A stretch of 43,857 nt of DNA. Origin: a virus. The notes under the pieces were generated by a model. The model did not search any database and was not told the DNA's origin. It saw only the letters and a list, made by a program, of their open reading frames with translations. Location of the stretch: IMG/VR virus record IMGVR_UViG_3300042507_006529, positions 1-43,857 of that record. The stretch is one strand, 5' to 3'. How positions within the stretch are numbered: position 1 is the first letter of the stretch; every line of letters begins with the position of its first letter. Positions 3,674 to 43,857 of this stretch are shown here, piece after piece. The translations under genes and the position numbers were made by a program.

Positions 3674-3708
3674 GTGGATGGGCGCGGTGGCACTGTCCGC
3701 GCATCCAC
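3674..3708. other. Imperfect hairpin upstream of glycosyltransferase-like gene
   Basis: GTGGATGGGCGCGG (3674-3687) pairs with CCGCGCATCCAC (3697-3708) with a two-base bulge and a 9-base loop. It lies between the tail propeller stop and the next gene. There is no downstream T-run. It could be a terminator-like or processing structure. Its presence argues that the next gene starts at 3735, not at the ATG at 3678 inside the hairpin. Confidence 0.55.
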
Positions 3709-3734
3709 TCCTGAGCCAATCTACATTGGCTCGC

Positions 3735-4646
3735 ATGAATCTTTTGTCGCGTGTCTTCGGACGACGCAAATCGGAACGGGTGGAGTTGGGACCGCCCCTA
3801 GTTCAAGGACCTCCCCAAGCGCAACCCAGCGAAGTGGTCAACCGCCTGCTCCGCGAGCGGGACGACCTGCGCCGGCAACTCAAGCACTCGACGGCCAAGG
3901 TGGAGTTTACGCCGGGGCGGGAGTTTGTGTGTGTGCTGCCGTTCTGTGCGGGGGACGAACACCGGTTCCGCGATCTTTTGCTGTGGATTTGCATGCTGGG
4001 ACAGGTTCCGGCCCGCGTCCTGGTGGTGATACCAAAATCCTATCAGGCAAGCCCGCATATCCGTTCCTTGATCGAGGCCGCGTTTCTGGAGCATGAACTG
4101 TTATGGACGCCCTTCGACCTACCCAATGAGGCGTGGCCGATAGGCCCCAACTGGATGTTCCTGACGGCCGCCCAATACTGCCGTCGGAAGAACTATGACT
4201 TTTGGCTGAACGAACCCGACTGCATTCCGCTGGTGCCGGGCTGGTTTGAGGCCATCCGTGACGAGTATCGGGCCTGCGGCAAACCTTACATGGGGTTTGT
4301 GGAACCGGCCGGAGAGCAGCACGCATCACATGTGGCGGGCAATGCGTGTTATCACCATGGCGTGTTTCACCACCTGCAAGTGGATCATCTGTGGAAGGCG
4401 TGGGACGTGGCCATGGCGGAGGTGTTGCTGCCAAGGGCGCACCGCACCCCGCTGGTGCATCAGGATTGGGGCAAGAGGGATCATCCGCCCACGTTCCACA
4501 CCGTGGACGACTTGCGGCGGATTCCCAAGGAGGCGGTGGTGTTCCATCGCAACAAGGACGGGAGCTTGATCCGGGTGCTCAGGGAGCAGCGGCAGATGGA
4601 ACAGCGAAGGCGCGAAGGCGCGAAGGAAGATGGAGGTGTGAAGTGA
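3735..4646 (+). CDS. Glycosyltransferase-like protein
   Basis: About 303 residues from the chosen start; an in-frame ATG at 3678 would add 19 residues but lies in a hairpin. After a basic, coiled N terminus the protein has VCVLPFCAGDEHRF, a Rossmann-like stretch LARVLVVIP-type, then YDFWLNEPDCIPLVPGWF. That last segment resembles the acidic metal/sugar-nucleotide site of nucleotide-diphospho-sugar transferases. Later come KPYMGFVE, GNACYHHGVF and VVFHRNKDGSLI. It could modify a phage or host surface glycan. The C terminus (REQRQMEQRRREGAKE) is encoded by a family A repeat, so the original end was probably replaced. Confidence 0.6.
   Translation: MNLLSRVFGRRKSERVELGPPLVQGPPQAQPSEVVNRLLRERDDLRRQLKHSTAKVEFTPGREFVCVLPFCAGDEHRFRDLLLWICMLGQVPARVLVVIPKSYQASPHIRSLIEAAFLEHELLWTPFDLPNEAWPIGPNWMFLTAAQYCRRKNYDFWLNEPDCIPLVPGWFEAIRDEYRACGKPYMGFVEPAGEQHASHVAGNACYHHGVFHHLQVDHLWKAWDVAMAEVLLPRAHRTPLVHQDWGKRDHPPTFHTVDDLRRIPKEAVVFHRNKDGSLIRVLREQRQMEQRRREGAKEDGGVK
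4599..4625 (+). repeat. Family A repeat, single copy inside a gene end
   Basis: A perfect copy of the three-hexamer unit (GAACAGCGAAGG then two further CGAAGG-type steps) sits in the last codons of the glycosyltransferase-like gene and is translated as EQRRREGAKE. No inverted partner lies nearby. It shows these elements insert at gene ends and are tolerated as C-terminal tails. Confidence 0.85.
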
Positions 4647-4897
4647 ATAGGCATTACAGCAAAAGTGACAAGGCGTCGGGCTGGCTGGCGGCGGGAACCC
4701 TGGGCTCTGCGCAAGGCGGCCAGCCGCCGATAATTCCGCCAACCAAGAATCCGTTGAAATACTACGTTAGAAACCCACATGTCATTGTGGGGCTGCCGAA
4801 TAGAACATTGACTGCCATACTTGGCCGGGCGCTGGCTCGGATTGGGGATCTGGAAGCGGAGCTGAAAGCGAAAGCGGAAAGCGGAGGTGCCCAATGA
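4643..4897 (+). CDS. Small protein with C-terminal helix, unknown
   Basis: The 84-residue product starts at a GTG overlapping the previous stop (GTGA). It has a Ser/Gly/Pro-rich front, a conserved-looking middle (NPLKYYVRNPHVIVGLPN), and a C-terminal helix (ILGRALARIGDLEAELKAK) suited to oligomerisation. No family is recognised. It sits between two glycosyltransferase-like genes with overlapping ends on both sides, so it may belong to the same modification module. Confidence 0.55.
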   Translation: MNRHYSKSDKASGWLAAGTLGSAQGGQPPIIPPTKNPLKYYVRNPHVIVGLPNRTLTAILGRALARIGDLEAELKAKAESGGAQ

Positions 4898-5592
4898 CCG
4901 TTCACACGTATCACGAGCCGGTGCCGGGGATGGACCGCACGGAGATCCTGAGCCTGTGGGCGGAGTCGTGGCGGCGGCATGGCTGGGAACCGGTGGTGCA
5001 TTCCCGGGCCGAGGCGAGCGCGCATCCGCAGGCGGGCAGTTACGAGACGAGGATTACCGGCCTGCCGACGGTGAATCCCCGCGCCTACGAGGATGCCTGC
5101 TGGCGCCGGTGGTTGGTGGCCGCCCAAGTGGGTGGCTTCTGGTGCGACGATGACTTGGTGAACGTGGGCTTCACCGCCGAGGAGGCCCGCGACGGCATGG
5201 CGCAGCATGTCTGGGTGGAGCGGTTCCTTGCGTGGCATGACGGGGCGCATCCCAACGCCGGGCTGCTGCTGGGCACCCGCGGCCATTATCAGGACTTTGT
5301 GGACCGGGTGTTGTCCGGCGAGCTGCTGACGGTGGACTGCCTCAACGGCCAGCCGCACACGTCCGACATGTATCTGTGGCATCACTTTTGGCGGGCCGGG
5401 GTGACGCACGACGTGCGCGGCGTGATGGCCTGCTACGGCGTGCCCGCGGCGATGCACGCCCGGCTGATCCATTGCAGCTACGACGCCACCACCGCCCGCG
5501 GCGTGGACCGCGTGGCCGCCATCCGGGGACTGGTGCGGCCCCCGAAAGACGAATTTGGAAAGCAGGAAGACAGGAAGGGGAATGACCAATGA
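4894..5592 (+). CDS. Glycosyltransferase-like protein with DxD motif
   Basis: The 232-residue protein has an early ILSLWAESWRRHGWEPVV segment, then NPRAYEDACWRRWLVAAQVG and FWCDDDLVNVGF. This order resembles small glycosyltransferase-like proteins in which the acidic triplet binds metal and the nucleotide sugar. The distal part has DCLNGQPHTSD and a Tyr/His-rich end. The last 15 residues (KDEFGKQEDRKGNDQ) are encoded by a family B repeat, so the natural terminus was replaced. An ATGA overlap links it to the upstream small gene. Glycan modification of receptors or virion proteins is inferred, not shown. Confidence 0.55.
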   Translation: MTVHTYHEPVPGMDRTEILSLWAESWRRHGWEPVVHSRAEASAHPQAGSYETRITGLPTVNPRAYEDACWRRWLVAAQVGGFWCDDDLVNVGFTAEEARDGMAQHVWVERFLAWHDGAHPNAGLLLGTRGHYQDFVDRVLSGELLTVDCLNGQPHTSDMYLWHHFWRAGVTHDVRGVMACYGVPAAMHARLIHCSYDATTARGVDRVAAIRGLVRPPKDEFGKQEDRKGNDQ

Positions 5593-5633
5593 ACAGGGAC
5601 TTGCCGCTTCCTGCTTTCCTGCCTTCCCGATTC
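5552..5633. repeat. Family B palindromic repeat pair (hairpin)
   Basis: The forward arm at 5552-5577 (AATTTGGAAAGCAGGAAG) faces an inverted arm at 5607-5633 (CTTCCTGCTTTCCTGCC onward) with a spacer of about 30 bases. The left arm is translated as the tail of the upstream gene and the right arm is intergenic. The 8-bp phased GGAA units are the same as in the other family B copies. Confidence 0.85.
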
Positions 5634-5654
5634 ATTTGGTCTGCGCAATCCCAC

Positions 5655-7159: not shown

Positions 7160-7563
7160 ACTCCGACCTTCTCCAGTTCATCCGCGAGCACGGCACGCCC
7201 AAGCTCAAGGCGGCGCCCGAGGACACGCTGCGGCGTTACCTCACGCAGCGGCATGTCCGGTGCATCTGGTTGCCGGGACAGGCGCTCGGCATCGGCTGGT
7301 TCCAGGAGGATGGCACGCTCTACGTGGCCAACGTGATGGCCGTGGATGCCGACGCCACGGGCCTGCTGGTGCTGGAGTTCCGCCGGCAATATCCGTGGGT
7401 GGAGGAATTGCTGGCCGACCGCGTGCCGTGCTCGGAACGCAAGACGAACCTCAGCCATCCCGGCCGCCGCAAACTCTACTCCCTCGAATACGTGGAACGC
7501 CTCGCCCGGCTGTGCGGGCATCGCGCCAACCAGCCCACGGCCGACCAACTTTGTTTCGCATGA
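7156..7563 (+). CDS. Conserved-looking phage protein, unknown
   Basis: The 135-residue product has a helical N terminus, then alternating strands (CIWLPGQALGIGWF, LYVANVMAVD, GLLVLEFRRQYP) and a C-terminal helix (LYSLEYVERLARL). The strand pattern faintly recalls acetyltransferase-like folds, but no cofactor motif is clear. It overlaps the tail fibre gene at ATGA and the next small gene at ATGA. The position just after a fibre gene suggests fibre assembly or modification, without proof. Confidence 0.55.
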   Translation: MNSDLLQFIREHGTPKLKAAPEDTLRRYLTQRHVRCIWLPGQALGIGWFQEDGTLYVANVMAVDADATGLLVLEFRRQYPWVEELLADRVPCSERKTNLSHPGRRKLYSLEYVERLARLCGHRANQPTADQLCFA

Positions 7564-7715
7564 CCCCTACCCACGTTTACCGCGACCGCCAAGGCGACCT
7601 GCACCTCGTGGTGCCGGAGTCCCCCCTGCCCGGCCGCGTGTGGATCTGCCGGCGCACGACCGACGGCACGACGCTTTACCTGCACGAGAGTTTGTTGGTG
7701 GCGGTTACGGACTGA
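7560..7715 (+). CDS. Small beta-rich protein, unknown
   Basis: A 51-residue protein begins at an ATGA overlap and stops just before a family C repeat. It has a compact strand pattern (THVYRDRQGDLHLVVPESP, RVWICRRTTDGTTLYL) typical of a small beta barrel. No family is recognised. Coupled overlap and good codon structure support it as a real short gene. Confidence 0.5.
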   Translation: MTPTHVYRDRQGDLHLVVPESPLPGRVWICRRTTDGTTLYLHESLLVAVTD

Positions 7716-7745
7716 ACAGAAGGGAACGGAGACAACGAAGATGAA
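7714..7745 (+). repeat. Family C repeat carrying an SD and start codon
   Basis: This 32-base element begins GAACAGAAGGGAACGG and ends ACGAAGATGAA; its twin is at 27511-27542. Its ATG is the start of the next gene, and the GGAG inside the element stands 8-9 bases upstream as a Shine-Dalgarno site. The element therefore supplies a full translation initiation region. Confidence 0.75.
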
Positions 7746-8595
7746 GGACTTCCTCAACCAAGAGTTTGCCGCCGGCCATGTCTGGCGACTCCGGGCACCC
7801 GCCGGCACGCGGTTCGACATGTCGCCCGACATCCAGGCCCGCGACGTGGCCGCCGAGACGGAGGCTTCGCTGGCCGCCACCGAGAAGTATTCGCCGCGAC
7901 TGGGCGCCATCAACCGCCGGCAACTGGAGCAGACACTGCTGGGCTCGCCCGACGACGGCACCCGCGGCCTGCTCGACATCTACTTCGAGGACGCCAGCCC
8001 GACCGCCGCCCGGGCGGATCGAGAAGCCTCGACCGCGCAGCGCGAGCAGGACATTGCCGACGTGACGCGACTGGGGCCCGGCGCCGTGCAGGCATTCCGC
8101 GCTGCCAATCCCGAGCAGCAGGCCCTCATGCAGGCGCTCAACGCGAGCGCCCTGGAGGGCATCAGCGCCGGCCGGCAGCTTCCGCCGGGCATCCAGCGGC
8201 AGGTGGAGCAGAACCTCCGCAGCGCGCAGGCCGGGCGCGGCTTTGGCTTTGGCGCCAACGACGCCATCATGGAAGCCCTCGCCACCAGCGACGCGGGGGA
8301 ACGCTACTTCCAGAACAACTTCCAGCGCGCCACGGGCATTGCCGGGCTGAACCAAGCCACGAGCGGCGACCCGTTCCAACTGGTGACCGGCCGGGCGAGC
8401 GGCGCCAATGCGGGCATGGGCCTGCTGGGCATGGGCAACCAGAACGCGCAGGGCACCACCGGCAGCATCTACGGCGGGGCCTCGAACATCCTCGACTGGA
8501 ACGCCAACAGCCAGCGCGACGCCGCCGTGTCCAGCGCCAACAATTCAGCCGCGCTCGCGGGCGCCGGCATTTCCGCCGCGGGCTCAGCCCTGTGA
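7741..8595 (+). CDS. Probable internal virion (ejection) protein
   Basis: This 284-residue protein is Ala/Gly/Gln/Asn-rich. It has a helical central part (about 95-170) and a C-terminal Gly/Ala/Ser-rich low-complexity end (GMGLLGMGNQNAQGTTGS, ALAGAGISAAGSAL). This composition is typical of small ejection proteins in short-tailed phages, which leave the capsid and help span the envelope. It heads the 7741-16883 block, with larger candidates downstream. Its start codon lies in a family C repeat. No enzymatic motif is seen. Confidence 0.55.
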   Translation: MKDFLNQEFAAGHVWRLRAPAGTRFDMSPDIQARDVAAETEASLAATEKYSPRLGAINRRQLEQTLLGSPDDGTRGLLDIYFEDASPTAARADREASTAQREQDIADVTRLGPGAVQAFRAANPEQQALMQALNASALEGISAGRQLPPGIQRQVEQNLRSAQAGRGFGFGANDAIMEALATSDAGERYFQNNFQRATGIAGLNQATSGDPFQLVTGRASGANAGMGLLGMGNQNAQGTTGSIYGGASNILDWNANSQRDAAVSSANNSAALAGAGISAAGSAL

Positions 8596-8597
8596 CC

Positions 8598-8906
8598 ATG
8601 AACAACTACAACGCCACCCCGATGCCGCGGGGAATCCAGCCCGGCGCCGGCAGCATGACCAAGCCCATGTCCGAGGAGGATTGGGTGAAACGCATGGAAC
8701 GCATGCAGGAACTGGGCGTGGCCGACGACAGCCTGCTGATGCGCGGCACCGAGTTTCGCCGGGGCCTGGCCGAACGCCGAGAGCAGTTCCGCGACGACGC
8801 CCGCGATTCGGTCCGGCAGGCGCTGGGCTTCAAGGCCAAGGATTCCGCCGCCCTTGGCGCCGCGGCCAAGAGCGCCGGCAAGAGCAGCCTCCTGTCCTCG
8901 CTGTGA
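8598..8906 (+). CDS. Small charged helical virion-module protein
   Basis: About 102 residues; a GTG at 8592 overlapping the previous stop would add two. The sequence has a Pro/Met-rich start, a charged helix (EEDWVKRMERMQELGVADDS and onward), and an Ala/Lys/Ser-rich tail (AAAKSAGKSSLLSSL). No family is recognised. It lies in the ejection-protein block and its stop overlaps the GTG of the next gene. It could be a small internal protein or an assembly factor. Confidence 0.55.
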   Translation: MNNYNATPMPRGIQPGAGSMTKPMSEEDWVKRMERMQELGVADDSLLMRGTEFRRGLAERREQFRDDARDSVRQALGFKAKDSAALGAAAKSAGKSSLLSSL

Positions 8907-9472
8907 AACGCTTCTTCCAACGCCGCTTCGGGTGTTACGGGCTCACGGTGCCGCTGGGCCGGGGCCGCCAGCTGGAACTGTGGCTGGCGCCGCGCCATGC
9001 CTTCATTCCGCGCCATGTCCACCCGCACATCCGCAGCACGCTGATCTTCCTGGGCGGACGCATGGCGTGGTGGCGCGACGAACTGCCCGGCAAGCTGATG
9101 ACGTGGCGCCATTTCGGACGCGCCTTCGAGGTGGCCCCGCACTGCGCCCACGCTGCGATGACGTTTGGCTGGTTCGGCCTGTTCGCCAACTTCGAGCAAT
9201 GGCTGCCCGGCGTGCCCATGACCAGCGCCGCCACGGATTTGGAACTGCGGGAAATCGGAGAGGACAATTTGGAAGGCAGGAAAGCAGGAACGGAGGAAGG
9301 CAAAAGCCTCTGCCAAGACGATGCAAGATGCTCAGAGATTGCCCGGAGGTGGCTGGCCGGTGAGTCGTTGCGGCACATTGCGGCGGCCGTAGGATGCAGC
9401 CGTAACACCGTCCCGGTAGTGATCCAGGAATTGAAGCGCCAAGGGAAGCTTCGCTGTTCGTTGCTGCCATGA
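8903..9472 (+). CDS. Cupin-like protein fused to a duplicated HTH domain
   Basis: The 189-residue product starts at a GTG overlapping the previous stop. Residues 1-120 look like a small beta barrel of the cupin type: HAFIPRHVHPHIRSTLIFLG, a Gly turn, then VAPHCAHAAM, supplying several histidines for a possible metal site. After a short linker encoded by a family B repeat (NLEGRKAGT), the last 51 residues repeat the HTH of the protein at 21932. They are about 80% identical at the protein level and 82% over 152 bases without gaps. The fusion looks recent and mediated by, or resolved at, the repeat. Whether the HTH part functions here is unknown. Confidence 0.6.
   Translation: MKRFFQRRFGCYGLTVPLGRGRQLELWLAPRHAFIPRHVHPHIRSTLIFLGGRMAWWRDELPGKLMTWRHFGRAFEVAPHCAHAAMTFGWFGLFANFEQWLPGVPMTSAATDLELREIGEDNLEGRKAGTEEGKSLCQDDARCSEIARRWLAGESLRHIAAAVGCSRNTVPVVIQELKRQGKLRCSLLP
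9266..9290 (+). repeat. Family B repeat at a gene-fusion junction
   Basis: A full family B unit (AATTTGGAAGGCAGGAAAGC) lies in frame inside the gene at 8903-9472. It sits between the cupin-like domain and the HTH copy that matches 22067-22218. No inverted partner lies nearby. Confidence 0.85.
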
Positions 9473-9888
9473 ACGTGCCGCCACTCTTCAACCTCTACCG
9501 CCGGGCCGCGATGAACCGCGACGATGCGTTCCTGTTCCTCATGGCCTTCCACGCGCACGCGCACCAGGTGGACGACGACATTGACGAGCCCGGCCGAAAC
9601 CGGGTGAACGCCGTGGACCGCTGCATGGAGGTGGCCGTGCTGACCAACTGCGAATTTTGGCGGGCCAATCACATGGCGCTGGCCACCGTGCATGCGCTGA
9701 TCGCCAGCCTTTACTCCACCAGCGTCATGGCGCCCACGAGCCCGCTGGCCAACACCCTGCGACTGAGCGGCAACCTGATGCCGCTGGCCGTCGCCTTCCT
9801 TTGCGGCGGCTGGGTCCACATGCAGGCCATCGCCGCCGACCTGTGGCCCATCGTCGCCCGTGACCAGTTGACCCCCACCGCTGCCTGA
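9469..9888 (+). CDS. Helical hydrophobic protein of the virion block, unknown
   Basis: The 139-residue product is mostly helical. It has His-rich DDAFLFLMAFHAHAHQVDDD near the N terminus and two moderately hydrophobic helices (ATVHALIASLYSTSVM and LMPLAVAFLCGGWVHMQAIA). It may be membrane-active or packed inside the virion. ATGA overlap with the upstream fusion gene shows coupling. No family is recognised. Confidence 0.55.
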   Translation: MNVPPLFNLYRRAAMNRDDAFLFLMAFHAHAHQVDDDIDEPGRNRVNAVDRCMEVAVLTNCEFWRANHMALATVHALIASLYSTSVMAPTSPLANTLRLSGNLMPLAVAFLCGGWVHMQAIAADLWPIVARDQLTPTAA

Positions 9889-9890
9889 CC

Positions 9891-10829
9891 ATGACCTACC
9901 AGCCCACCGTTACCGATCGCACCGGGGAATTCCTGTTCCGCGGCATCACCGGCGCCGCCGATTCTCTCGCCGACGCCGTGAAGCAACGCAAGCAGCAGTC
10001 GCAGAAGGCGTCGTCGCTGCGGAAGACCATCGGCATCTACAACCCCGAGCTGAAGGACGAGGTGCAGACCATGGGCCTCGCCGACCTCGAAGGCTACGTG
10101 GCCGGCATCGGCATGAAGGCGGCCAAGGACAAGCTGGCACAGGACCAGTCGAACAAGGACCGGGAATATAACCTGTCGAAGGTGTATGCCGACCTGCAAC
10201 AGGGCCAGATGAACCGGGCCAACGAACGCGACGCCGCGGGGCAACGCTTTACCCAATCGCTCGCCAGCCTCATGGGCACCGGCGGCGGACCGAGCATGGA
10301 CTTCGCCAACACGCTGGCCGGCGAACCGCAACCCGCCCGCGACGTGGGCCTCGCCGACATCGTGCAGGCCGCCGGCCAAAGCGGGCTCACGCTCGAACCC
10401 ACATCGCTTGCGCAACTGCTCCGGGCGGAACAGATGGGGCAGCGGGGGAATGCGGGGGCCGAGCTGGCCTTCCAGGAAGATCCCGTGACCGGGGCGCGCG
10501 TCGCCACGTTTGGCAACAGCCTGATTCCCACCGGCACCAACCCGGCCAAGCAGCAGGCGCAGGCCGTGGCGGTGACCGACAGCGAGGGCAACGTGATCGG
10601 GCAGGCGATTCCCGGGCGCAACGGCATGCAGTTGGTCCGCACTCCGGCCAAGGGCGTGGATCCCAAGACGCGGGTGAATGCCATCCTCGCCCAGCTCAAG
10701 GTTGAATCCAACCTGCCCCGCCGCCAGAAACTGACGGAGGAACTGGACGGCCTGCTGAACGGCACTGCACCGGCCGCCGCCCCCACCGCGACCGGCGCGG
10801 TCAACGACCCCCTCGGACTGTTCAACTGA
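9891..10829 (+). CDS. Probable internal virion protein
   Basis: This 312-residue protein has a long charged helical N-terminal half (LADAVKQRKQQSQKASSLRK, then KDKLAQDQSNKDREYNLSKV). The C-terminal half is looser, with DPVTGARVATFGNS and DSEGNVIGQAIPGRNG strands and a Pro/Ala linker at the end. Size, composition and the place directly before the giant polyvalent protein suggest an ejection or capsid-internal protein. No catalytic motif is visible. Two bases separate it from the upstream stop and three from the next start. Confidence 0.55.
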   Translation: MTYQPTVTDRTGEFLFRGITGAADSLADAVKQRKQQSQKASSLRKTIGIYNPELKDEVQTMGLADLEGYVAGIGMKAAKDKLAQDQSNKDREYNLSKVYADLQQGQMNRANERDAAGQRFTQSLASLMGTGGGPSMDFANTLAGEPQPARDVGLADIVQAAGQSGLTLEPTSLAQLLRAEQMGQRGNAGAELAFQEDPVTGARVATFGNSLIPTGTNPAKQQAQAVAVTDSEGNVIGQAIPGRNGMQLVRTPAKGVDPKTRVNAILAQLKVESNLPRRQKLTEELDGLLNGTAPAAAPTATGAVNDPLGLFN

Positions 10830-10832
10830 CCC

Positions 10833-13800
10833 ATGAGTGACCGCCTCATTGACCGGGTGCGCGCCAAGTATCCGCAATATGCGGACGTGCCCGACGACAA
10901 GCTGACCCTCGCCATTGGCACCAAGTTCCCGGCCTACCTGGAGCGCGACGCTAAGTTCGCCGCCAACTTCGAGGCGTTCGGCCAGATGCAGGCCAACAAC
11001 CAAGACACCGCCGCCCGGTCCGGGTTCTCCGGCCAGTTGGAGGGGGTGATCAACGCCGCGCACGAGGTGGGGTTTGACGCCGCCCGCGCCGTGGACCGCG
11101 AGGTGATCCAGCCGCTCACCGGGGGCACCGCCGCCGAGTGGGCCGCCGCCGTTCCCGAGGCCGCCAGCCTCATGCTGCGCCAACCGCTGCGCGAGGCCGG
11201 TAAGGTGTTCTCCACCGCCGGCAATCTGCTGGCCGAGGACGTGCGCAAGGTCACCGGCCTGACTTCCCTCGACCCCGCCGGGCCCGTCGCCCAAGGTTTG
11301 CAGGACGTGGGCCGGTCCGCTCCCGTGCTCGGCGCCAGCATGGCGTTGTCGGCCTACGGTGTGCCGCCCATGGCCGCGTTCGGCGGGCCCATGGCCGCGC
11401 AGACCTACGGCGAGACGGGTGATCCGCAGGCCGCGTTCCAGGCCGGCGTGATGGGCGCCGCGATTCCGGCCGTCGCCCAGGCGGGCAAGTCGCTGGCCGT
11501 GGGCGTGAACCGGCAACTGATCCAGCGCGGGCTGATGTCGCCCGGCGCCACGGCCACGCAGAAGGCGGTGGAAGTGCTCGGCTCGCAGGGTGCCGTGCAG
11601 GTGTTCATGGAAGGACTGCGCCTGCCGGAATACGCGGCGCTCGACCCGCAGCAGCGCAAGGAGGCCATCCTGCGGAACCTCGTGGCCAACACGGCGTTCC
11701 TGGCGCTCGACGTGCCGGGCTTCCGGCGGTCCCTGCCGAGCGAGACGCAGGCCAGGCTGAGCCCGGCCGAGCACGTGGCCGTGGCCCTGCGCGATGCCGC
11801 CAACCACCCCGAGGTGATCGAGGCCCTGCGCCAGAGCGCGGACGAGATTGCGCTGGCCGCCACGCGGCCCGAAGCAGGGAGCGGGGAGCAGGGAGACGGG
11901 CCGCTGTTCCGCCGCGAGGCGCCGCTGGGGGAGGTCGGGCCGGGGTTTGAGGCGCCAAAGATGGTTCGACTCTACCGCGGAGAAACCAAACCCGGGCCGC
12001 CGTCGTGGGGGCGTTCCGGTGAAATTGATCGGGCCACGTTTGAGCCGCCCGAATTCCGGGGGCGCTGGTTCACGCCCGACCCGGACGTGGCCAAGCCCTA
12101 CGCCAGAGCCGCCCACGATCCCGATGGGCGGATCATTTATGTCGATGTGCCCGAGGCGGACTTGGAAGCCTACCGGGTTGTGAATGTGCCGGGGGCGCGC
12201 AAGCACAGCCTTCAGCCGCGCAGTGAATTTGTGCTGCCGCCGGAATTGGTTCGCCGGGCCCGGACGTTGCCAAAGGAACAGCCGCCCGGCCGCGCCGCGG
12301 CAGTGCCGAGGGGCGAGTTCCGAATTCCGAATGCGGAGCCGGGGCGCCCGCTCGACCCGTTCGCAACGGACCAAGGGGCGACGGAGAACGTGCCGGCGGA
12401 AGGCATCGACGTGGTGGGCATGGGGCGGCGGGTGGAACAGCAGACGCCGGAGACATTGCCCGGCACCCGGTCGGTCGCGCAACGCATGGTCAACGCCGAG
12501 GATCGGTTCCTGGAGTTTGCCATGCAAACGGCCGGACTGACGCAAGAGCAGGCAACCACGGCGCTGGCCGAGTATCGCAAGGCCAAGGCCATCAAGTTCG
12601 ACCCGGTGGGCGGTCAATTCGCCTTCACGCATGGCGGATTTGCCGAAGCTGAGGTGTTGCGCCGCGCCGCGGGTGTGGCGAGTGCTGAAGCTCCCGCTGT
12701 GCCGGCCGCGGAATCCATGACCAAGCCGGCCGAGGTGCGACCGGCAGAGCCGACTGAGCCGGCGCAGGCTCCCGCCGCGGCGGCGCCGGCCATGCAGGGC
12801 GGCATGGATAACCTGCGGTTTGTCAGTGAGGTGGTGAAGCGCGGCCGGGCTGGCAAGGGCAAGCCGCTGGTGACCGATGCCAAGGACGCCAAGGCCAAGC
12901 TGATCGGTGAGCTAGGGAAGGCGGTGGAGGCGGCGCCGACAATGCAGGACACCGACAACCCGAGGCAGAAGGTCACCATCGAGATTCCCGGGGATGGCAC
13001 GTTGACCGTCTGGAACACCAAGGAACAGTTGGGCCAGTTGCTGGGCCGGGCCAAGCGGTTGGAAACGGGGGCGTCCGTTTCGGGCAAGGCGCCCGTGGCG
13101 CGGGCGGCCAAGATGGATGTGGTCCGCGTCATTGAGGATGCCCGCAAGGTATATGGCGACCGCCGGGCGGCCGACGTGTTGCAGCGGCAGGCTGAAGACA
13201 TGGAGCTGGAGATCGAACCTAAACAGCGTGAGCTGTTGGCCGAGGCGGCCGTCCGATTGAGGAATAGTCTGCCGCCGGAGCCGCCTCCTGTGGCGGCGCC
13301 AGCAGAACCGCCGCCCGCACTAAATGCGCCGCCGAAGGAAGGTGTAGTTGCACAAACGGAACCTGCCCGGCCGTCCAAGCCGGTGTTGGGTGGCAAGGTG
13401 GACTTCCTGATTCCGGCTCGAATTTCAGGCAATCCGGCGGTGAAGCGGTCCGGGCAAATGGTGACGTTGCCAGCAGATCCGGCGCACCAATATGTGGTGG
13501 CGGCCGATGGCAAAACGTGGGCGGTCTACGAATACACAACCGGGCAGCGGCCGGGTGACACCTACGCCAAGACGCGAGCCGGAGCAATTGCCAAGGCTGA
13601 GGCCAACATTGAGAAGGCTGGCGGTTCAGCGAAGATGGCCGAGCTGATCGGTGGGCGGGAGCGGATCAATGAAGATACTGTCGGGGAAGCGAAAGGCGGC
13701 GCCGCCGGTTCCCCGCTCGAAGCTCAAGGACAGTTTGGCCTGCCCGCGTTGCCGGCGGGCACCGCCACGGCCGTGCCGAGCAAGCGCATGGTGGTGACCA

Positions 13801-21680: not shown

Positions 21681-21935
21681 ATGTCGACCCACCGCGCCAC
21701 CGCCAAGCCCGCCGCAGCCCCGGAGATCCCGGCGCGGTTGCGCCTGCTGACGGTCGCCCAGGTGGCCGCGGCGCTGGCGGTGTGCCGGCACACGGTGCGG
21801 CGCTGGATTGCCCGCGGTCATTTTCCCGGCGCCATCGTGCTGCCGGGCGGTGATGTGCGCGTGCCATTGGCTGAGCTGGAGCGGTTCCAGCAGCGGCAGG
21901 CGCTGGCGTTTTTGCCGGAGGAGGCTGTCGGATGA
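21681..21935 (+). CDS. MerR/excisionase-type helix-turn-helix protein
   Basis: This 84-residue protein carries the winged HTH core LLTVAQVAAALAVCRHTVRR followed by WIARGHFPGAIVLPGG and a wing DVRVPLAELERF, as in excisionase-type (HTH_17) proteins. It may act as an excisionase, a transcription activator or a replication accessory factor. It lies in the early operon away from the integrase, which argues somewhat against a dedicated excisionase. Its stop overlaps the next start (ATGA). Confidence 0.7.
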   Translation: MSTHRATAKPAAAPEIPARLRLLTVAQVAAALAVCRHTVRRWIARGHFPGAIVLPGGDVRVPLAELERFQQRQALAFLPEEAVG

Positions 21936-22690
21936 GTCGTCCCGCACCCCGAGCGCAGCGGCTGACGGCCGAGGATCTGGCGGAGCTGGTGAGCGAGCAG
22001 CCGGCGCTTTTTGCGCTACCGGCGGTCGAGGATCGGGAGCTTCAGCGGAGCGCGGCGCGTTTTACGGGCAAGATCGTGTGCCGAGACGACGCGAGGTGCG
22101 CGGAGATTGCCCGGCGCTGGCTGGTCGGTGAGTCGCAGCGGGACATTGCGGCCGCCGTGGGGTGCAGCCGGAACACCGTGCCGGTCGTGCTGCGGGAATT
22201 GGAGCGGCAGGGGAAGCTAGAGCCACTTAAAGACTTGGTGCTGCGCGACTTGGGAGAGGCGGTGCGCGAGCAAGTCGCGTGGAACAAGGACCTGATCGCC
22301 GCCCGCAAAGTAACCAGCGAGGCCGCCGCGATCCTGAAGGCGGGATGGGTTGGGGCTGGGGTGTTTCTGGACAAAGTGTCGGGGCCGCAAATCCACCTGC
22401 ACGCGCACGAGCACCGGGTTGCGCCGGTGGGTGAAGACCTGGCCCGGCAGTATGCAGAGCAGCTCCGCAACCTCTCGGCTGATGTTGAATCAGGTGGGCA
22501 GGCGTTGATTTCCAACGGTTTGCGCGGTGCTGATACGTCGGACGATACGACGGGAGCGGTGATCGAGGTCGGCCAGGTGGGTGGCGACGGCGGATCGGGC
22601 GGCGCGGTGAGCGCGGCGGGAGCGGGAGCGGACACCCCGGGGGGGGGGTCGCGTTCGGGCGCGGGTGCTGGGACGAACGATGGAAACTGA
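21932..22690 (+). CDS. Helix-turn-helix DNA-binding protein
   Basis: The 252-residue protein has a homeodomain-like HTH (ARCAEIARRWLVGESQRDIA, then AVGCSRNTVPVVLRELERQG) at about residues 53-97. A helical middle follows (SEAAAILKAGWVGAGVFLDK), then a Gly/Ala/Ser-rich tail. A GGAGGAGG site precedes the start. It could be a regulator, a replication factor or a terminase small subunit placed away from the large subunit. Its HTH was copied into the gene at 8903. The tail contains a run of ten G bases that could shift the frame into the next gene. Confidence 0.6.
   Translation: MSRPAPRAQRLTAEDLAELVSEQPALFALPAVEDRELQRSAARFTGKIVCRDDARCAEIARRWLVGESQRDIAAAVGCSRNTVPVVLRELERQGKLEPLKDLVLRDLGEAVREQVAWNKDLIAARKVTSEAAAILKAGWVGAGVFLDKVSGPQIHLHAHEHRVAPVGEDLARQYAEQLRNLSADVESGGQALISNGLRGADTSDDTTGAVIEVGQVGGDGGSGGAVSAAGAGADTPGGGSRSGAGAGTNDGN
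22639..22648 (+). repeat. Homopolymer G tract (10) in a gene end
   Basis: Ten consecutive G bases follow CCCC near the 3' end of the HTH gene. Loss of one G would carry the frame directly into the downstream gene's frame, joining the two proteins. It may be a slippage site, a variable tract or a sequencing error. Confidence 0.7.
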
Positions 22691-28199: not shown

Positions 28200-28435
28200 A
28201 CAGCGAAGACGTTAAGACGCGAAGTGAATGGGTGTATTGGTGCAATGGTTGTTCCGTGCGGCGCGTTGAGTCGCCCAGCCTGCTTTGCTCCCACTGCAAA
28301 CTCGAAATCGATCTGGCCGCGGCCAACAAGCGCATCCGCCGGCTGGAGGAGGCGGGGGATGCGTTATTCCAGCAATTTCACCACCCGACGTTACAAACTC
28401 ACCAATGGACCAAAGCCAAGGAGGCAAAAGCATGA
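28196..28435 (+). CDS. Small zinc-binding coiled protein
   Basis: The 79-residue product starts in a family A repeat (MNSEDVKTRSEW) and then has YWCNGCSVRR and LLCSHCKLEI, two CxxC pairs forming a probable zinc ribbon, followed by a helix EIDLAAANKRIRRLEEAGDA. That helix and its DNA are nearly identical to the gene at 28653. The start overlaps the previous stop by four bases. Binding to nucleic acid is possible. Confidence 0.5.
   Translation: MNSEDVKTRSEWVYWCNGCSVRRVESPSLLCSHCKLEIDLAAANKRIRRLEEAGDALFQQFHHPTLQTHQWTKAKEAKA
28198..28224 (+). repeat. Family A repeat at a gene start
   Basis: GAACAGCGAAGACGTTAAGA followed by CGCGAAG is a diverged family A unit forming the first codons of the zinc-ribbon gene. 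There is no inverted partner close by; the nearest inverted copy is at 28913-28938. Confidence 0.75.
28299..28361 (+). repeat. 63-bp direct repeat, first copy (second at 28762-28824)
   Basis: The 63 bases encoding the LEIDLAAANKRIRRL helix match 28762-28824 with one mismatch. The flanking parts of the two genes are unrelated, so this is a recent segmental duplication or gene conversion that moved a helix between two small proteins. Confidence 0.9.
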
Positions 28436-28656
28436 GCGACACACCAAAAAAAGAGCCGGTCATGGAAGCCGGGCAACTGACCTATGGGCAGGAAAACGAC
28501 TGCTGCGACGACAGCACGATTGGCCAATACATCGAAATCGAATCTCACGACGGAGGCGCTGGAAAATACTTCACGATCAAAACCGAGCGTTGGGCATTTG
28601 ATAACGCGAAACAGTTGGTTGCGATGATCGAAGACGCGGAACGGAGGTTGAAATGA
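28432..28656 (+). CDS. Small acidic protein, unknown
   Basis: 74 residues (MSDTPKKEPVMEAGQLTYGQ and onward) with acidic strands and a C-terminal helix (NAKQLVAMIEDAERRLK). The start overlaps the previous stop and the stop overlaps the next start. The next gene begins with the same MSDTP codons, so the initiation region was also duplicated. Function unknown. Confidence 0.55.
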   Translation: MSDTPKKEPVMEAGQLTYGQENDCCDDSTIGQYIEIESHDGGAGKYFTIKTERWAFDNAKQLVAMIEDAERRLK

Positions 28657-28904
28657 GCGACACACCAACACCGAGGACGAATGGAATCCGTCAAACCATC
28701 GCTATTGGAGACTTCATGAATCCGGGAGACGGATTGAAGCTGGCACTGGACCACGCCGATCAACTCGAAATCGATCTGGCCGCGGCCAACAAGCGCATCC
28801 GCCGGCTGGTGGAGGCGGGGGATGAAATTGCCTTCCGCCTTCGTGAATCCGTATTCACCGAAGACGTGGTTGCGATTGAAGAATGGGACCATGCCAAGCT
28901 GTGA
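28653..28904 (+). CDS. Small helical protein before terminase, unknown
   Basis: The 83-residue product has a polar start, then the duplicated helix (QLEIDLAAANKRIRRLVEAG) and an acidic end (SVFTEDVVAIEEWDHAKL). It lies immediately before the terminase large subunit, the usual place of a small subunit, but no HTH is visible, so that role is only a possibility. Confidence 0.5.
   Translation: MSDTPTPRTNGIRQTIAIGDFMNPGDGLKLALDHADQLEIDLAAANKRIRRLVEAGDEIAFRLRESVFTEDVVAIEEWDHAKL
28762..28824 (+). repeat. 63-bp direct repeat, second copy
   Basis: This matches 28299-28361 with a single A/T difference (Glu to Val in the product). Confidence 0.9.
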
Positions 28905-28958: not shown

Positions 28959-30860
28959 ATGTTTGAGCAGGAGCCACAACATCCGCTGTTTGCGTTGCCG
29001 ACGGAGCGGCAGGCGCGGGCGATCTTGCGGAATCACGGGGAGCGGGGGCTGGGCGATTTCCTGAGCCGGCGCCGGCAGGCGATTGCGGACGCGGAACGGG
29101 ACCCGCTCCAGTTCCTGCCGCCCATGAAGTCGTGGAAGCTCACGCGGCGCGTGGTGCGGCGGTATCGGCCCAAGTTGCTGGTGTTGCTCGGGGGCAATCG
29201 GTCGGGCAAGTCGTTCTACTGCGCCTATCATCTGGTGCTGGAAATGCTGTCGCAGGACGCGGGCAGCGATGCCCGGTTCCTCGTGGGGTCGGAGACGGAG
29301 CGGAGCAGCATCGAGACGGCGCAGCAACTGGTGTGGCGTTTCCTGCCGCCGGACCTGAAGGCGTTGAACGGCCGGCGCGATCCGCGGCGCGTGTTCAGCA
29401 TCGGTTACGATCCGAAGAACGGGTTCGCCGACCGCATCCTGGTGCTGCCGAGCGGGGTGAAGCTGCTGTTCGCCACGTATCGCGGCGACCCGGCGGAGTT
29501 CGAGGGGTTCGAGTTCGGCGCCCGCGAGGGTTACGGCGTGGCGTGGTGGCTCGACGAGAACGCGCCGATCCCGTGGCTGACCATGCTGCGGCGGCGCGGT
29601 GAGTATCGGCCCGGCTACGGCGTGTGGAGCTTCACGCCGATCAACGGCATCACGCCGGCGATCAAGGAGGCGGTGGGCACGGGCAAGATTCTGCGGACGA
29701 AGGTGGCGAAGATCCTGCCGCAGAACCAAGTGCTGGTCGAAGGGTGCCGGCCGGGGCGCGTGCCGCTGGTGCAGGCCGGGGCCATCCAGCGCACGCGGGT
29801 GGTTTACTTCCACTCGGACATGACGGTGTTCGGCAGCGGCGGCGAGACCTACGGGCAGCAGGTGGCGCGGGCGGTTGAGGGCAAGCCGCGGGATTACGTG
29901 CTGCGAATCTTCTACGGGTTCACCAAGGACGTGATGGGGCTCCAGTTCCCGACGTTCAACCGCAACGTGCATGTCGTGCGCGAGCGCGAGCTGCCGGCGG
30001 AGGGGACGAACTACCTGTTCATCGACCCGGCCGGGGCGCGCAACTGGTTCCTGCTCTACGTGCGCGTGGCGCCGGGCAATCCGCGCCGGCTGTTCATCTG
30101 GAAGGATTGGCCCGACTGCCAGACCTACGGCGAGTGGGCGGTGCCGACGGAACGCAAGGTGACGCAGGATTCCCGGCACGGCTGGGATGGCGACGCGGGC
30201 CCGGCGCAGATGAACCTGGGCTATGGCGTGACCCGCTACAAACGGCTGCTGAAGGAGCTGGAGACGATTCCGTTGGAGCTGGGCGCGGACGGGGAATGGA
30301 AGGCGCAGGACCCGATGGCGAGGCGGTTGTTGGACGAGGCCATGGCCAAAGGCGGAATGAAGAAGGAAGAAGGCAGAATGAAGTGGGGACGGGAGGAAGT
30401 TGCGGAGGTGCGGAAGCGGGGGGTGGTGGTGCGGTATCCGATCCAACTGCGGAAGATTGACCCGCGGGCGGCGATGAATCCGCAGGCGGCCGAGAAGGGC
30501 GGCACGAACCTGATCGAGCTGTTCGCGGCGAAGCAGGAGGAGCGCGGCCAGGTGCATGAGGGCGTGGACCTGATTCCCGCCTACACGGGCCGGGGCGATG
30601 ACAACGGCGTGACGGCCGTGCATGACCTGCTGAGTTTCGACGAGCAGCAGCCGCTGTGCGCGGTGGTGAATGAACCGAGGCTCTGCGTGAGCGACGCGGC
30701 GCAGCAGGTGATGTGGATGTTCGAGAATTTCACCGGGCGCGGCGGCGAGGACGGCGCGTGCAAGGACCCGGCGGACCTCGTGCGTTACGTGGCGCAGGAC
30801 GACGAGCTGGTGCATGTCACGCCGGGGATGTTCCGGGCGAAGGCGGGTTACGCTTATTGA
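28959..30860 (+). CDS. terL: Terminase large subunit
   Basis: A 633-residue packaging motor and nuclease. The N-terminal ATPase has Walker A LLGGNRSGKSF (about 77-86) and Walker B GVAWWLDENAP (about 193-203). The C-terminal RNase H-like nuclease has LFIDPAGARNWF with the first acidic residue at about 356, and later HDLLSFDEQQ. Between about residues 465 and 480 a short-period insert (GGMKKEEGRMKWG) derives from a repeat. The protein cuts concatemers and drives DNA into the portal shell. The start is the ATG after a family A element. Confidence 0.92.
   Translation: MFEQEPQHPLFALPTERQARAILRNHGERGLGDFLSRRRQAIADAERDPLQFLPPMKSWKLTRRVVRRYRPKLLVLLGGNRSGKSFYCAYHLVLEMLSQDAGSDARFLVGSETERSSIETAQQLVWRFLPPDLKALNGRRDPRRVFSIGYDPKNGFADRILVLPSGVKLLFATYRGDPAEFEGFEFGAREGYGVAWWLDENAPIPWLTMLRRRGEYRPGYGVWSFTPINGITPAIKEAVGTGKILRTKVAKILPQNQVLVEGCRPGRVPLVQAGAIQRTRVVYFHSDMTVFGSGGETYGQQVARAVEGKPRDYVLRIFYGFTKDVMGLQFPTFNRNVHVVRERELPAEGTNYLFIDPAGARNWFLLYVRVAPGNPRRLFIWKDWPDCQTYGEWAVPTERKVTQDSRHGWDGDAGPAQMNLGYGVTRYKRLLKELETIPLELGADGEWKAQDPMARRLLDEAMAKGGMKKEEGRMKWGREEVAEVRKRGVVVRYPIQLRKIDPRAAMNPQAAEKGGTNLIELFAAKQEERGQVHEGVDLIPAYTGRGDDNGVTAVHDLLSFDEQQPLCAVVNEPRLCVSDAAQQVMWMFENFTGRGGEDGACKDPADLVRYVAQDDELVHVTPGMFRAKAGYAY
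30352..30386 (+). repeat. Family E short-period repeat inside terL
   Basis: A stretch of GGAATGAAGAAGGAAGAAGG type encodes GGMKKEEGRMK in the terminase. It resembles the interspersed short-period repeats of the rest of the window and is in frame, so it is tolerated within an essential enzyme, presumably in a surface loop. Confidence 0.6.
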
Positions 30861-30885
30861 ATTTGAAAGGCAGGAAAGCAGGAAG
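30861..30885 (+). repeat. Family B repeat acting as RBS
   Basis: AATTTGAAAGGCAGGAAAGC followed by AGGAA begins at the terL stop and ends three bases before the ATG of the adenine methyltransferase. AGGA of the last unit is positioned as a Shine-Dalgarno site. Confidence 0.85.
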
Positions 30886-30887
30886 AC

Positions 30888-31424
30888 ATGAGCACAGGGC
30901 AGCAGTTTCTTTTGAACGGCCAGATTGACGCGGCACCGGAGATTGGTGGCTTTGGCCACTTTGAGCGGGTGGAGCGAGGCAAGGATGAATGGCTTACTCC
31001 GCCAGGAATAATCCGCGCGCTGGGATCATTTGATTTGGACCCGTGCGCACCGCGGGTTCGCCCCTGGGAAATGGCCGCCCGCCATTACACTTTCGAGGAC
31101 AACGGGTTGTTGAAGCCGTGGGAGGGCCGGGTTTGGTGCAATCCGCCGTATGGCGACGAGACCTGCAAATGGTTGGCGCGGTGTCACGACCACGGAAACG
31201 CAATCGCACTTACCTTTGCTCGCACAGAGACCCGCATGTTTCACGATTACGTATGGCAGGCGGCCACCGCAGTCTTCTTCTTCAAAGGCCGGCTTACCTT
31301 TTACCACGTCACCGGCGAGCCCGGAAACACAAGTCCGGCGCCAAGCTGCCTTATAGCTTTTGGGGCAGAGAATGTAATGGCAATCCGGGCAAGCGGCCTT
31401 CCGGGGCGGTTGGTAGTTTTGTGA
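30888..31424 (+). CDS. dam: Phage N6-adenine DNA methyltransferase
   Basis: This 178-residue enzyme matches the phage Dam-type family: DEWLTPPGIIRAL at about 33-45, FDLDPCAP at about 48-55 and the catalytic VWCNPPYG at about 82-89 (NPPY, motif IV). It methylates adenine using S-adenosylmethionine. It lies between terminase and portal, a place where such orphan methyltransferases are often found, and probably protects phage DNA. Translation is initiated from a family B-derived ribosome-binding site. Confidence 0.9.
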   Translation: MSTGQQFLLNGQIDAAPEIGGFGHFERVERGKDEWLTPPGIIRALGSFDLDPCAPRVRPWEMAARHYTFEDNGLLKPWEGRVWCNPPYGDETCKWLARCHDHGNAIALTFARTETRMFHDYVWQAATAVFFFKGRLTFYHVTGEPGNTSPAPSCLIAFGAENVMAIRASGLPGRLVVL

Positions 31425-31456
31425 GCAAACATCTAGGAGCAGAACACAAAGACACT

Positions 31457-31663
31457 ATGGACGAGATCAGCAGGAAGACGTGGATGGGGTTGCCGGCGTG
31501 GGTGCCGTTGGAAACGGTGTGCCGGTTCACGGGGCTGTATAAAACAGACATCCGGGCGCTGGTGGACGTGGGCCGGCTTCGGACGCTGAAGGTGGGGCGC
31601 ACCGGGAAACGGGTGCGCTATTGCAAGGTGGATGTGGGGGAACTGTGCGGGTATCAGCAGTGA
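31457..31663 (+). CDS. Small helix-turn-helix (AlpA/excisionase-like) protein
   Basis: 68 residues starting MDEISRKTWMGLPAWVPL. The motif ETVCRFTGLYKTDIRALVDV, followed by GRLRTLKVGRTGKRVRYCKV and a C-terminal helix, is the MerR/AlpA-like winged HTH used by excisionases and small activators. Its location next to late genes suggests a regulator of packaging or structural genes. A family A hairpin follows its stop. Confidence 0.65.
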   Translation: MDEISRKTWMGLPAWVPLETVCRFTGLYKTDIRALVDVGRLRTLKVGRTGKRVRYCKVDVGELCGYQQ

Positions 31664-31676
31664 CCGGCATGGGATT

Positions 31677-31753
31677 AACAGCGAAGACGCGAAGACGCGA
31701 AGGAAGGCAAAGCCATGACGTTCCCCGCTTCGCGCCTTCGCGCCTTCGCTGTT
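31677..31753. repeat. Family A palindromic repeat pair (hairpin)
   Basis: The forward arm at 31677-31702 (AACAGCGAAGACGCGAAG and onward) faces an inverted arm at 31728-31753 (CTTCGCGCCTTCGC and onward), spacer 25 bases. It separates the HTH gene from portal and may end transcription or stabilise the mRNA. Confidence 0.9.
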
Positions 31754-42819: not shown

Positions 42820-43571
42820 AATCGCTTCTGCTTTCCCTCCTGCTCGCGCTCACCTGCTACGCGCCGACGCCGCTGTTTCTGTTGCAGAACGGGGCGACGA
42901 CGGCATTCAGCCCGGCCGACGTTTCCGGGCTCACGATCTGGCTGGTTGCCGATGACATTTCCGGGGCCGATGGCGACACGGTGCAAACATGGTCAGCGCG
43001 CACCCCGACCACGATTAACGCGACGCAAGCCACGCTCGCTTCGCGCCCCACGCTTCAGACCGGCGAAGTCAATGGGCACAATGCAGTGCTCGCGGACGGC
43101 GTAAACGACCTGATGACCCTTTCCGCGTCCGTATCCTCAACGGCCAGTTGGACCGTGTTCTCGGTGCAGAAACGCTCGGCCAGCGGGTCGCTGGGCTACG
43201 CGCTGGCAACGGCGTCAATCACTCCCCCCTACAGCCCGATCGAATACGGCTCACTCTCTCGGCTTTATGTCGCATCGAGGACAGACCAGAAATACGCCAC
43301 AATCCCAAGCCATGCGTGGCACGTGCTCACCGGCCAGGATGCGTCGGGAACGCTCAATGCGTGGGTGGATGGAACGGCTCAAACCCTGACCGCGGCCTCC
43401 GCCACCGGCACAACTGACTTTGACCGGCTGTTTGCGCGGTCAAACTTTGAGTTTTCAGCCGTCTATGTGGCCGAGCTGATCTTCTACAACCGAACACTGA
43501 CCACGACGGAGCGGCAGAACGTGGAGGCTTACCTACGGTCAGCTGAGAAATATGGGACCCCTGCGCCATGA
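42816..43571 (+). CDS. LamG/concanavalin-like secreted protein
   Basis: 251 residues with a Sec signal peptide (MKSLLLSLLLALTCYAPTPL). The jelly-roll domain follows: VSGLTIWLVADDISGADGDT, RPTLQTGEVNGHNAVLADGV, WTVFSVQKR, then AVYVAELIFYNRTLTTTERQ and NVEAYL at the end, all characteristic of LamG-type domains. These bind carbohydrates. It may be a secreted adhesin or a surface lectin made by the host cell or virion. The first 47 codons of the window are its other copy, read across the circular junction. Confidence 0.8.
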   Translation: MKSLLLSLLLALTCYAPTPLFLLQNGATTAFSPADVSGLTIWLVADDISGADGDTVQTWSARTPTTINATQATLASRPTLQTGEVNGHNAVLADGVNDLMTLSASVSSTASWTVFSVQKRSASGSLGYALATASITPPYSPIEYGSLSRLYVASRTDQKYATIPSHAWHVLTGQDASGTLNAWVDGTAQTLTAASATGTTDFDRLFARSNFEFSAVYVAELIFYNRTLTTTERQNVEAYLRSAEKYGTPAP

Positions 43572-43857
43572 GAATCATCCTTGCCATCCTGCTCGCAATA
43601 CTCCCGCTCGCGCTGTTGGCGCAAACCTCCACGGTCATCATCGTTCCCGCGCACCTCCGCGACGCGGCCAACGCGGTGGCCAAGGCAGAGTTCGATCCGC
43701 TTGGCGGCGAGTTCACGTTCACCGCGGCGATGGTCACGTTGCCCGCAACCAACGTGACGCACTTCTGGTGCGCGACGCCGTTCTCCGCAACCAATCGCGC
43801 CAAGCTCAACGTGTTGGCCAACACGCCGCCGTTTGCCGGCGTGACGCTGGTGCTGGA
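43427..43857 (+). repeat. Right copy of the imperfect terminal repeat
   Basis: This matches 1-431 with 17 substitutions and no indels; most changes are synonymous or conservative and lie in the early part of the small secreted protein gene. It marks the end of one genome length of 43426 bases. Confidence 0.9.
43568..43857 (+). CDS. Small secreted protein, second version (cut by window edge)
   Basis: The frame begins with the ATGA overlap and the same signal peptide as the gene at 142, then differs in a few residues (STVIIVPAHLRD against STIVIVPAALRD, and one Leu to Met) before becoming identical. It runs off the window after about 96 codons. It represents the same locus in a variant genome, or a second allele at the other end of a linear molecule. 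Confidence 0.75.
   Translation, partial: MRIILAILLAILPLALLAQTSTVIIVPAHLRDAANAVAKAEFDPLGGEFTFTAAMVTLPATNVTHFWCATPFSATNRAKLNVLANTPPFAGVTLVL

Follow-up and report, generated by a model that had tools for sequence, protein, structure and literature searches.

An HTH-coding tail at a composite dispersed repeat in a phage gene whose sister alleles carry the repeat alone

T4-type phages provide the closest known parallel to the locus described here in their intergenic shuffling cassettes, the promoter early stem-loops (PeSLs), which were reportedly described as mobile regulatory cassettes by Arbiol et al. in 2010. Lambdoid phages carry short conserved boundary sequences at the junctions of their modules, and mosaic breakpoints fall there. 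Domain shuffling with gain of a C-terminal HTH is also known in phage proteins, a known DNA-binding fold being joined to an unrelated protein. Outside phages, the REP elements and REPINs are short dispersed bacterial repeats, often arranged as inverted, hairpin-forming pairs and located mostly at gene ends (PMC3733652, PMC3116915).

The stretch of DNA analyzed, from this point on the window, is the IMG/VR virus record IMGVR_UViG_3300042507_006529 over its full 43,857 bases (GC 66%). It encodes an SU10-type major capsid protein, a DnaB helicase, and a 2016-residue protein with an LPD38 domain. Its ends (1-430 and 43428-43857) repeat one another over about 430 bp at only about 95% identity (measured over 300 bp), unlike an exact terminal repeat.

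The fused gene and its HTH tail

The gene at 8903-9472 is an intact fused reading frame of 189 residues, without an internal stop, that overlaps both of its neighbors: the start overlaps the stop of the preceding gene (8904-8906), and its own TGA overlaps the next ATG at 9469. A preliminary description of this DNA, made from the letters alone, labeled the product cupin-like. Family searches (Pfam, PHROGs, NCBIfam, PDB) lend this label no support, as no cupin profile appeared at E-values up to 1 and the N-terminal part matched nothing in NCBIfam or PDB. With regard to the double-stranded beta-barrel fold of cupins, AlphaFold2 predicted four strands within residues 1-126, at pLDDT below 50 and from three input sequences, too poor a basis for the N-terminal part. 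Homologs of the gene were found neither in 388 genomes of the Verrucomicrobiota phylum nor in annotated phages, and a search of annotated phage DNA likewise returned no match.

The C-terminal tail was said to match the HTH of a second, resident gene at 21932-22690, and the match is real. When the gene is queried against the window by blastn, 9299-9450 aligns with 22067-22218 over 152 nt, with 28 mismatches and no gaps (81.6%, E=4e-38). Both copies lie in the same codon phase, third positions account for 16 of the 28 differences, and 40 of 50 residues are identical. AlphaFold2 places three helices in the tail (residues 140-151, 156-163, and 169-179; pLDDT about 71-82), the layout of a three-helix HTH fold. 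Profile scores stay below the curated Pfam cut-offs (HTH_38, 22.7 bits against 27; HTH_28, 22.4 against 25; E-values 8e-5 to 1e-4) for both proteins, with the sub-threshold matches consistent across a group of related families (HTH_38/HTH_28/HTH_23). The evidence supports the addition of an HTH, in frame, to the recipient gene at the site of a repeat.

This repeat belongs to a family designated B, and the HTH had been described as beginning exactly at its edge. Instead, homology begins 8 nt past the B element. Moreover, the first 11 nt of that homology (GGCAAAAGCCT) are present in relatives that have no HTH, so the true foreign segment spans approximately 9310-9448. Table 1 lists the parts of the gene together with the other features discussed below. 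An in-frame TTG lies within the B element (9269-9271), with GGAGAGG ahead of it; judged by sequence, it could be a candidate internal start for a separate 67-residue HTH protein.

Table 1. Coordinates of the recipient gene, the resident gene and related repeat sites in the window. L009 and L010 are the two HTH-less relatives.
Feature	Position	Strand	Remarks
Recipient gene body	8903..9265	+	GTG start on stop of preceding gene; gap-free alignment with sister proteins, repeat-encoded part included, 92%; family unproven
Family B repeat AATTTGGAAGGCAGGAAAGCAGGAA	9266..9290	+	In-frame translation NLEGRKAG; identical in HTH-less L009 and L010
Spacer CGGAGGA(A/T)GGCAAAAGCCT between B and A elements	9291..9309	+	Common to HTH-less relatives
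HTH-coding segment, 139 bp, probably inserted	9310..9448	+	Replaces 16 bp of A; net gain 123 bp (41 codons), frame kept
Remnant CTTCGCTGTT of inverted family A element	9449..9458	-	A element whole in relatives
Common C-terminal end and TGA stop	9459..9472	+	Overlaps ATG of next gene 9469-9888; ...RCSLLP* identical in window, L009, and L010
Resident gene with homologous HTH (22067-22218)	21932..22690	+	N-terminal part is an allelic cassette
Dam methyltransferase gene (30888-31424) in a segment of about 573 bp	30860..31457	+	Directly after B element 30860-30884; absent there in four relatives
Inverted B pair (5552+, 5608-), no gene	5536..5649	.	Relatives have A+B+[76-aa ORF]B-A- at the same place
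A element at 3' end of gene 3678-4646, then 263 bp	4600..4893	+	The 263 bp are missing in relatives

The site in sister phages and the source of the HTH

Homologs of the recipient gene without the HTH tail, for which the preliminary description had proposed a search, occur in two sister phages, the viral contigs 3300048580_000754 (L009) and 3300044911_003754 (L010), each a 92% match. Both carry the same B element in the same place and no HTH. Past B they continue with CGGAGGATGGCAAAAGCCT and then an inverted element of a second repeat family, A, with the reading frame running through both repeats to RCSLLP*. Relative to these contigs, the window has 16 bp of A exchanged for the 139-bp HTH segment, while the final 10 bp of A are kept at the right junction. 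A fusion without the repeat had been named as the finding that would speak against a part for the repeat. The opposite was seen, the repeat without the fusion, which implies that the B repeat is older than the fusion. Because the end of A is retained in the window and A is intact in the relatives, insertion of the HTH is favored over its loss.

The reverse order of events, in which the ancestral gene had the HTH tail and both relatives lost it, their A element being either intact or restored via another A copy, we consider unlikely. It would fit the resemblance of the shared spacer GGCAAAAGCCT to the start of the resident HTH, which agrees at 8 of 11 positions, and since the surrounding tract is the identical allele in 3300048580 and 3300044911, perhaps a single event would suffice. 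However, two changes are needed, loss of the HTH and either truncation of A in the window or its restoration in the relatives. Furthermore, a near-identical motif, GGAAGGCAAAGCC, sits in the loop of another A hairpin (31677-31753); the spacer thus need not stem from an HTH and is more simply regarded as part of the repeat than as a relic. The more distant relative 3300044953 (L023, about 9461-9549) lacks the whole gene, together with gene 8592-8906, which also argues against an ancestral tail. When searched against other viral contigs, the spacer at this site matched four unrelated contigs besides the two relatives. A mixed-pair hairpin considered for the B-A site of the relatives was dropped, as it showed no fold (z 0.46).

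As to the source of the HTH, the preliminary description held that the resident domain had been duplicated within the genome and attached by recombination at the B repeat. The 82% identity, the common frame, and the position of a B element 8 nt ahead of the start of the match would agree with such a course, yet we regard it as improbable. The relatives carry the B repeat without any HTH, and the resident HTH has no A or B element near it, the nearest one ending 1.5 kb upstream of the resident gene. Nor do the ages fit. The two HTH copies differ by a dS of 0.61, whereas the window and 3300048580 differ by 0.14 in the recipient gene and 0.12 in the next gene. The HTH copies are thus four to five times as diverged as the fused and unfused alleles, and must have split well before them. 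In addition, where the two copies differ, an outgroup allele (L011, from 3300044911, about 40% identical in the HTH domain) matches the inserted one at 12 sites and the resident one at 6, and hence does not nest the inserted copy within the resident lineage as a derived offshoot. One observation keeps a former resident allele in play as the donor: phages also exchange the N-terminal part of the resident gene as a cassette, with sharp ends at about 21937 (near the start codon) and 22394, and an allele of about 40% identity takes its place in 3300044911. Outside this cassette (21937-22394), the resident gene is 94-95% conserved.

Recombination between B elements fares no better than duplication of the resident HTH, given the want of A or B elements near the latter and the placement of the junctions, the left one 19 bp past B and the right one inside A. 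The B element did not carry the HTH over from the resident gene; rather, the B-A composite is the acceptor site, one of several in this phage group. What survives of the proposed repeat-guided fusion is therefore the in-frame gain of an HTH at a repeat site and the presence of such repeats at many breakpoints, and what falls is the resident duplication and the exchange between B elements. The donor was most likely a diverged sister allele of gene 21932. The viral contigs searched contained no candidate donor allele above 82% identity, and 14 repeat-bearing genomes of the Verrucomicrobiota group yielded no donor, with one weak match. The whole resident protein had no match in the 388 genomes of the phylum, a search in which the control likewise went without a match.

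Repeat families, breakpoints, and the allelic tract

The window contains 12 B and 10 A elements, against 0 in shuffled or reversed controls. Querying a genome collection with the B consensus returned 46 stretches, all of them from Verrucomicrobia, Spartobacteria, Lentisphaerae, Kiritimatiellaeota or one unclassified bin. B elements reach up to 52 copies per genome, and 7 of the 14 repeat-bearing genomes also contain A. A and B are dispersed repeats of Verrucomicrobiota type, the type of the likely host phylum. Their arms are built from a period-8 unit, and single arms are not palindromic. The inverted pairs 1829/1875, 5552/5608, and 31677/31728 fold strongly, with z-scores of -7.2, -3.9, and -6.1, respectively. 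Several A or B elements extend over gene 3' ends, and several genes besides the recipient end within such repeats.

Breakpoints between sister phages cluster at these repeats. Comparison with eleven relatives gave 45 distinct structural breakpoints, not fully independent on account of ancestry shared among the relatives, of which 13 are no more than 20 bp from an A or B element, versus 1.4 expected by rotating the element map (P<1e-4). For intergenic breakpoints only, 8 of 25 are near an element, versus 2.8 expected (P=0.005). The clustered cases include gain or loss of an entire Dam methyltransferase gene, and two further examples are given in Table 1.

A 351-bp cassette (28333-28683) lies between A+ (28199) and A- (28913) elements. 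It is 99.4% identical in the otherwise unrelated contigs L013, L027, L088, and L095, where it is located between B+ and B-. A 63-bp direct repeat (28299-28361 and 28762-28824, 98%) falls inside the cassette region between the A elements.

The fused gene itself belongs to a mosaic tract. The window and 3300048580 show 0 differences over 7251-8500 and 1 over 10000-11500; from approximately 8700 to 9850, however, their divergence is about 5%, and in this interval 3300048580 is identical to 3300044911. Such a tract between near-identical flanks implies that the fused and unfused forms are alleles exchanged on a stretch of about 1.1 kb, the ends of which are several hundred bases away from the repeat. 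This pattern also bears on the chance that the junction is an assembly chimera, present in no real phage genome. The junction is known from a single contig, of metagenomic origin; nevertheless, an artifact is extremely unlikely. The insert is at best 82% identical to anything elsewhere in the contig and stands in frame, and it is embedded in an allelic tract about 5% removed from the relatives on both sides, which a mis-join would not yield.

Proposed history and comparison with known systems

The account we favor, to which we assign a probability of roughly two in three, is that an HTH from a diverged allele was inserted into a B-spacer-A repeat at the end of a gene. The composite repeat would already have been translated as the tail of the protein, and the 139-bp segment coding for three helices would have entered it by illegitimate recombination, on the scale of microhomology, with loss of 16 bp of A. 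The donor, a diverged sister allele of gene 21932 rather than the resident copy, was probably supplied by a co-infecting phage. With the repeat tail in frame and the HTH arriving in its own frame (+41 codons), the stop and the ATGA overlap with the next gene would be retained, and the protein would acquire an HTH at its C-terminus, joined through a linker that the repeat encodes. The fused gene then segregates as an allele on the tract of about 1.1 kb, by homologous recombination. Across the genome, the A and B repeats would serve as acceptor boundaries at which incoming cassettes are tolerated.

Whether arrival of the HTH brought a function is a separate matter, and the tail may bind DNA. It could also be a hitch-hiker with neutral effect, an extension that the C-terminus tolerates and that has no part in DNA binding, a reading compatible with the favored origin and a serious possibility, if somewhat short of even odds. 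In the sister proteins the last stretch is encoded by repeats, a sign that this terminus tolerates change, and the other genes ending inside A or B repeats point the same way. Against this, the HTH is complete, stop-free, and in its original frame, and omega between the two copies is 0.16 (P=0.0007 versus a neutral spectrum), although most of that history may predate the fusion.

Sister phages still carry this gene as it was before the domain fusion, which lets the order be read directly: repeat first, domain later. The locus also connects the exchange of phage genes with a type of repeat that the probable host phylum carries. A wider and rather doubtful proposal is that phages of Verrucomicrobiota took up the period-8 repeats of their hosts as genome-wide acceptor sites for cassettes, with landings at translated 3' ends making C-terminal fusions, the HTH being one. 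The link to host-type repeats offers a testable explanation for the landing places of cassettes.

Like REP elements and REPINs, the A and B repeats are dispersed (12 B and 10 A elements) and form hairpins as inverted pairs, but the GTAG or CGTC tag at one end of each REP element (PMC3733652) is in neither consensus. The period-8 arms, not palindromic singly, differ from them as well. With the boundary sequences of lambdoid phages they have in common a short conserved sequence where mosaic breakpoints fall; unlike those, they comprise two families spread over about 20 places of a single genome, with counterparts in the host phylum. The resemblance to PeSLs lies in form and position: both are short, dispersed, stem-loop-capable sequences between phage genes at sites of gain, loss, and exchange, and A and B elements coincide with cassette boundaries at the 13 of 45 breakpoints noted above. 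They depart from PeSLs in being shared with genomes of the host phylum, in often lying over gene 3' ends and being translated, and in hosting an insertion of domain size. Compared with other HTH gains in phage proteins, the recipient fusion stands apart in that its acceptor is a translated dispersed repeat and its state before the fusion can be seen in sister phages.
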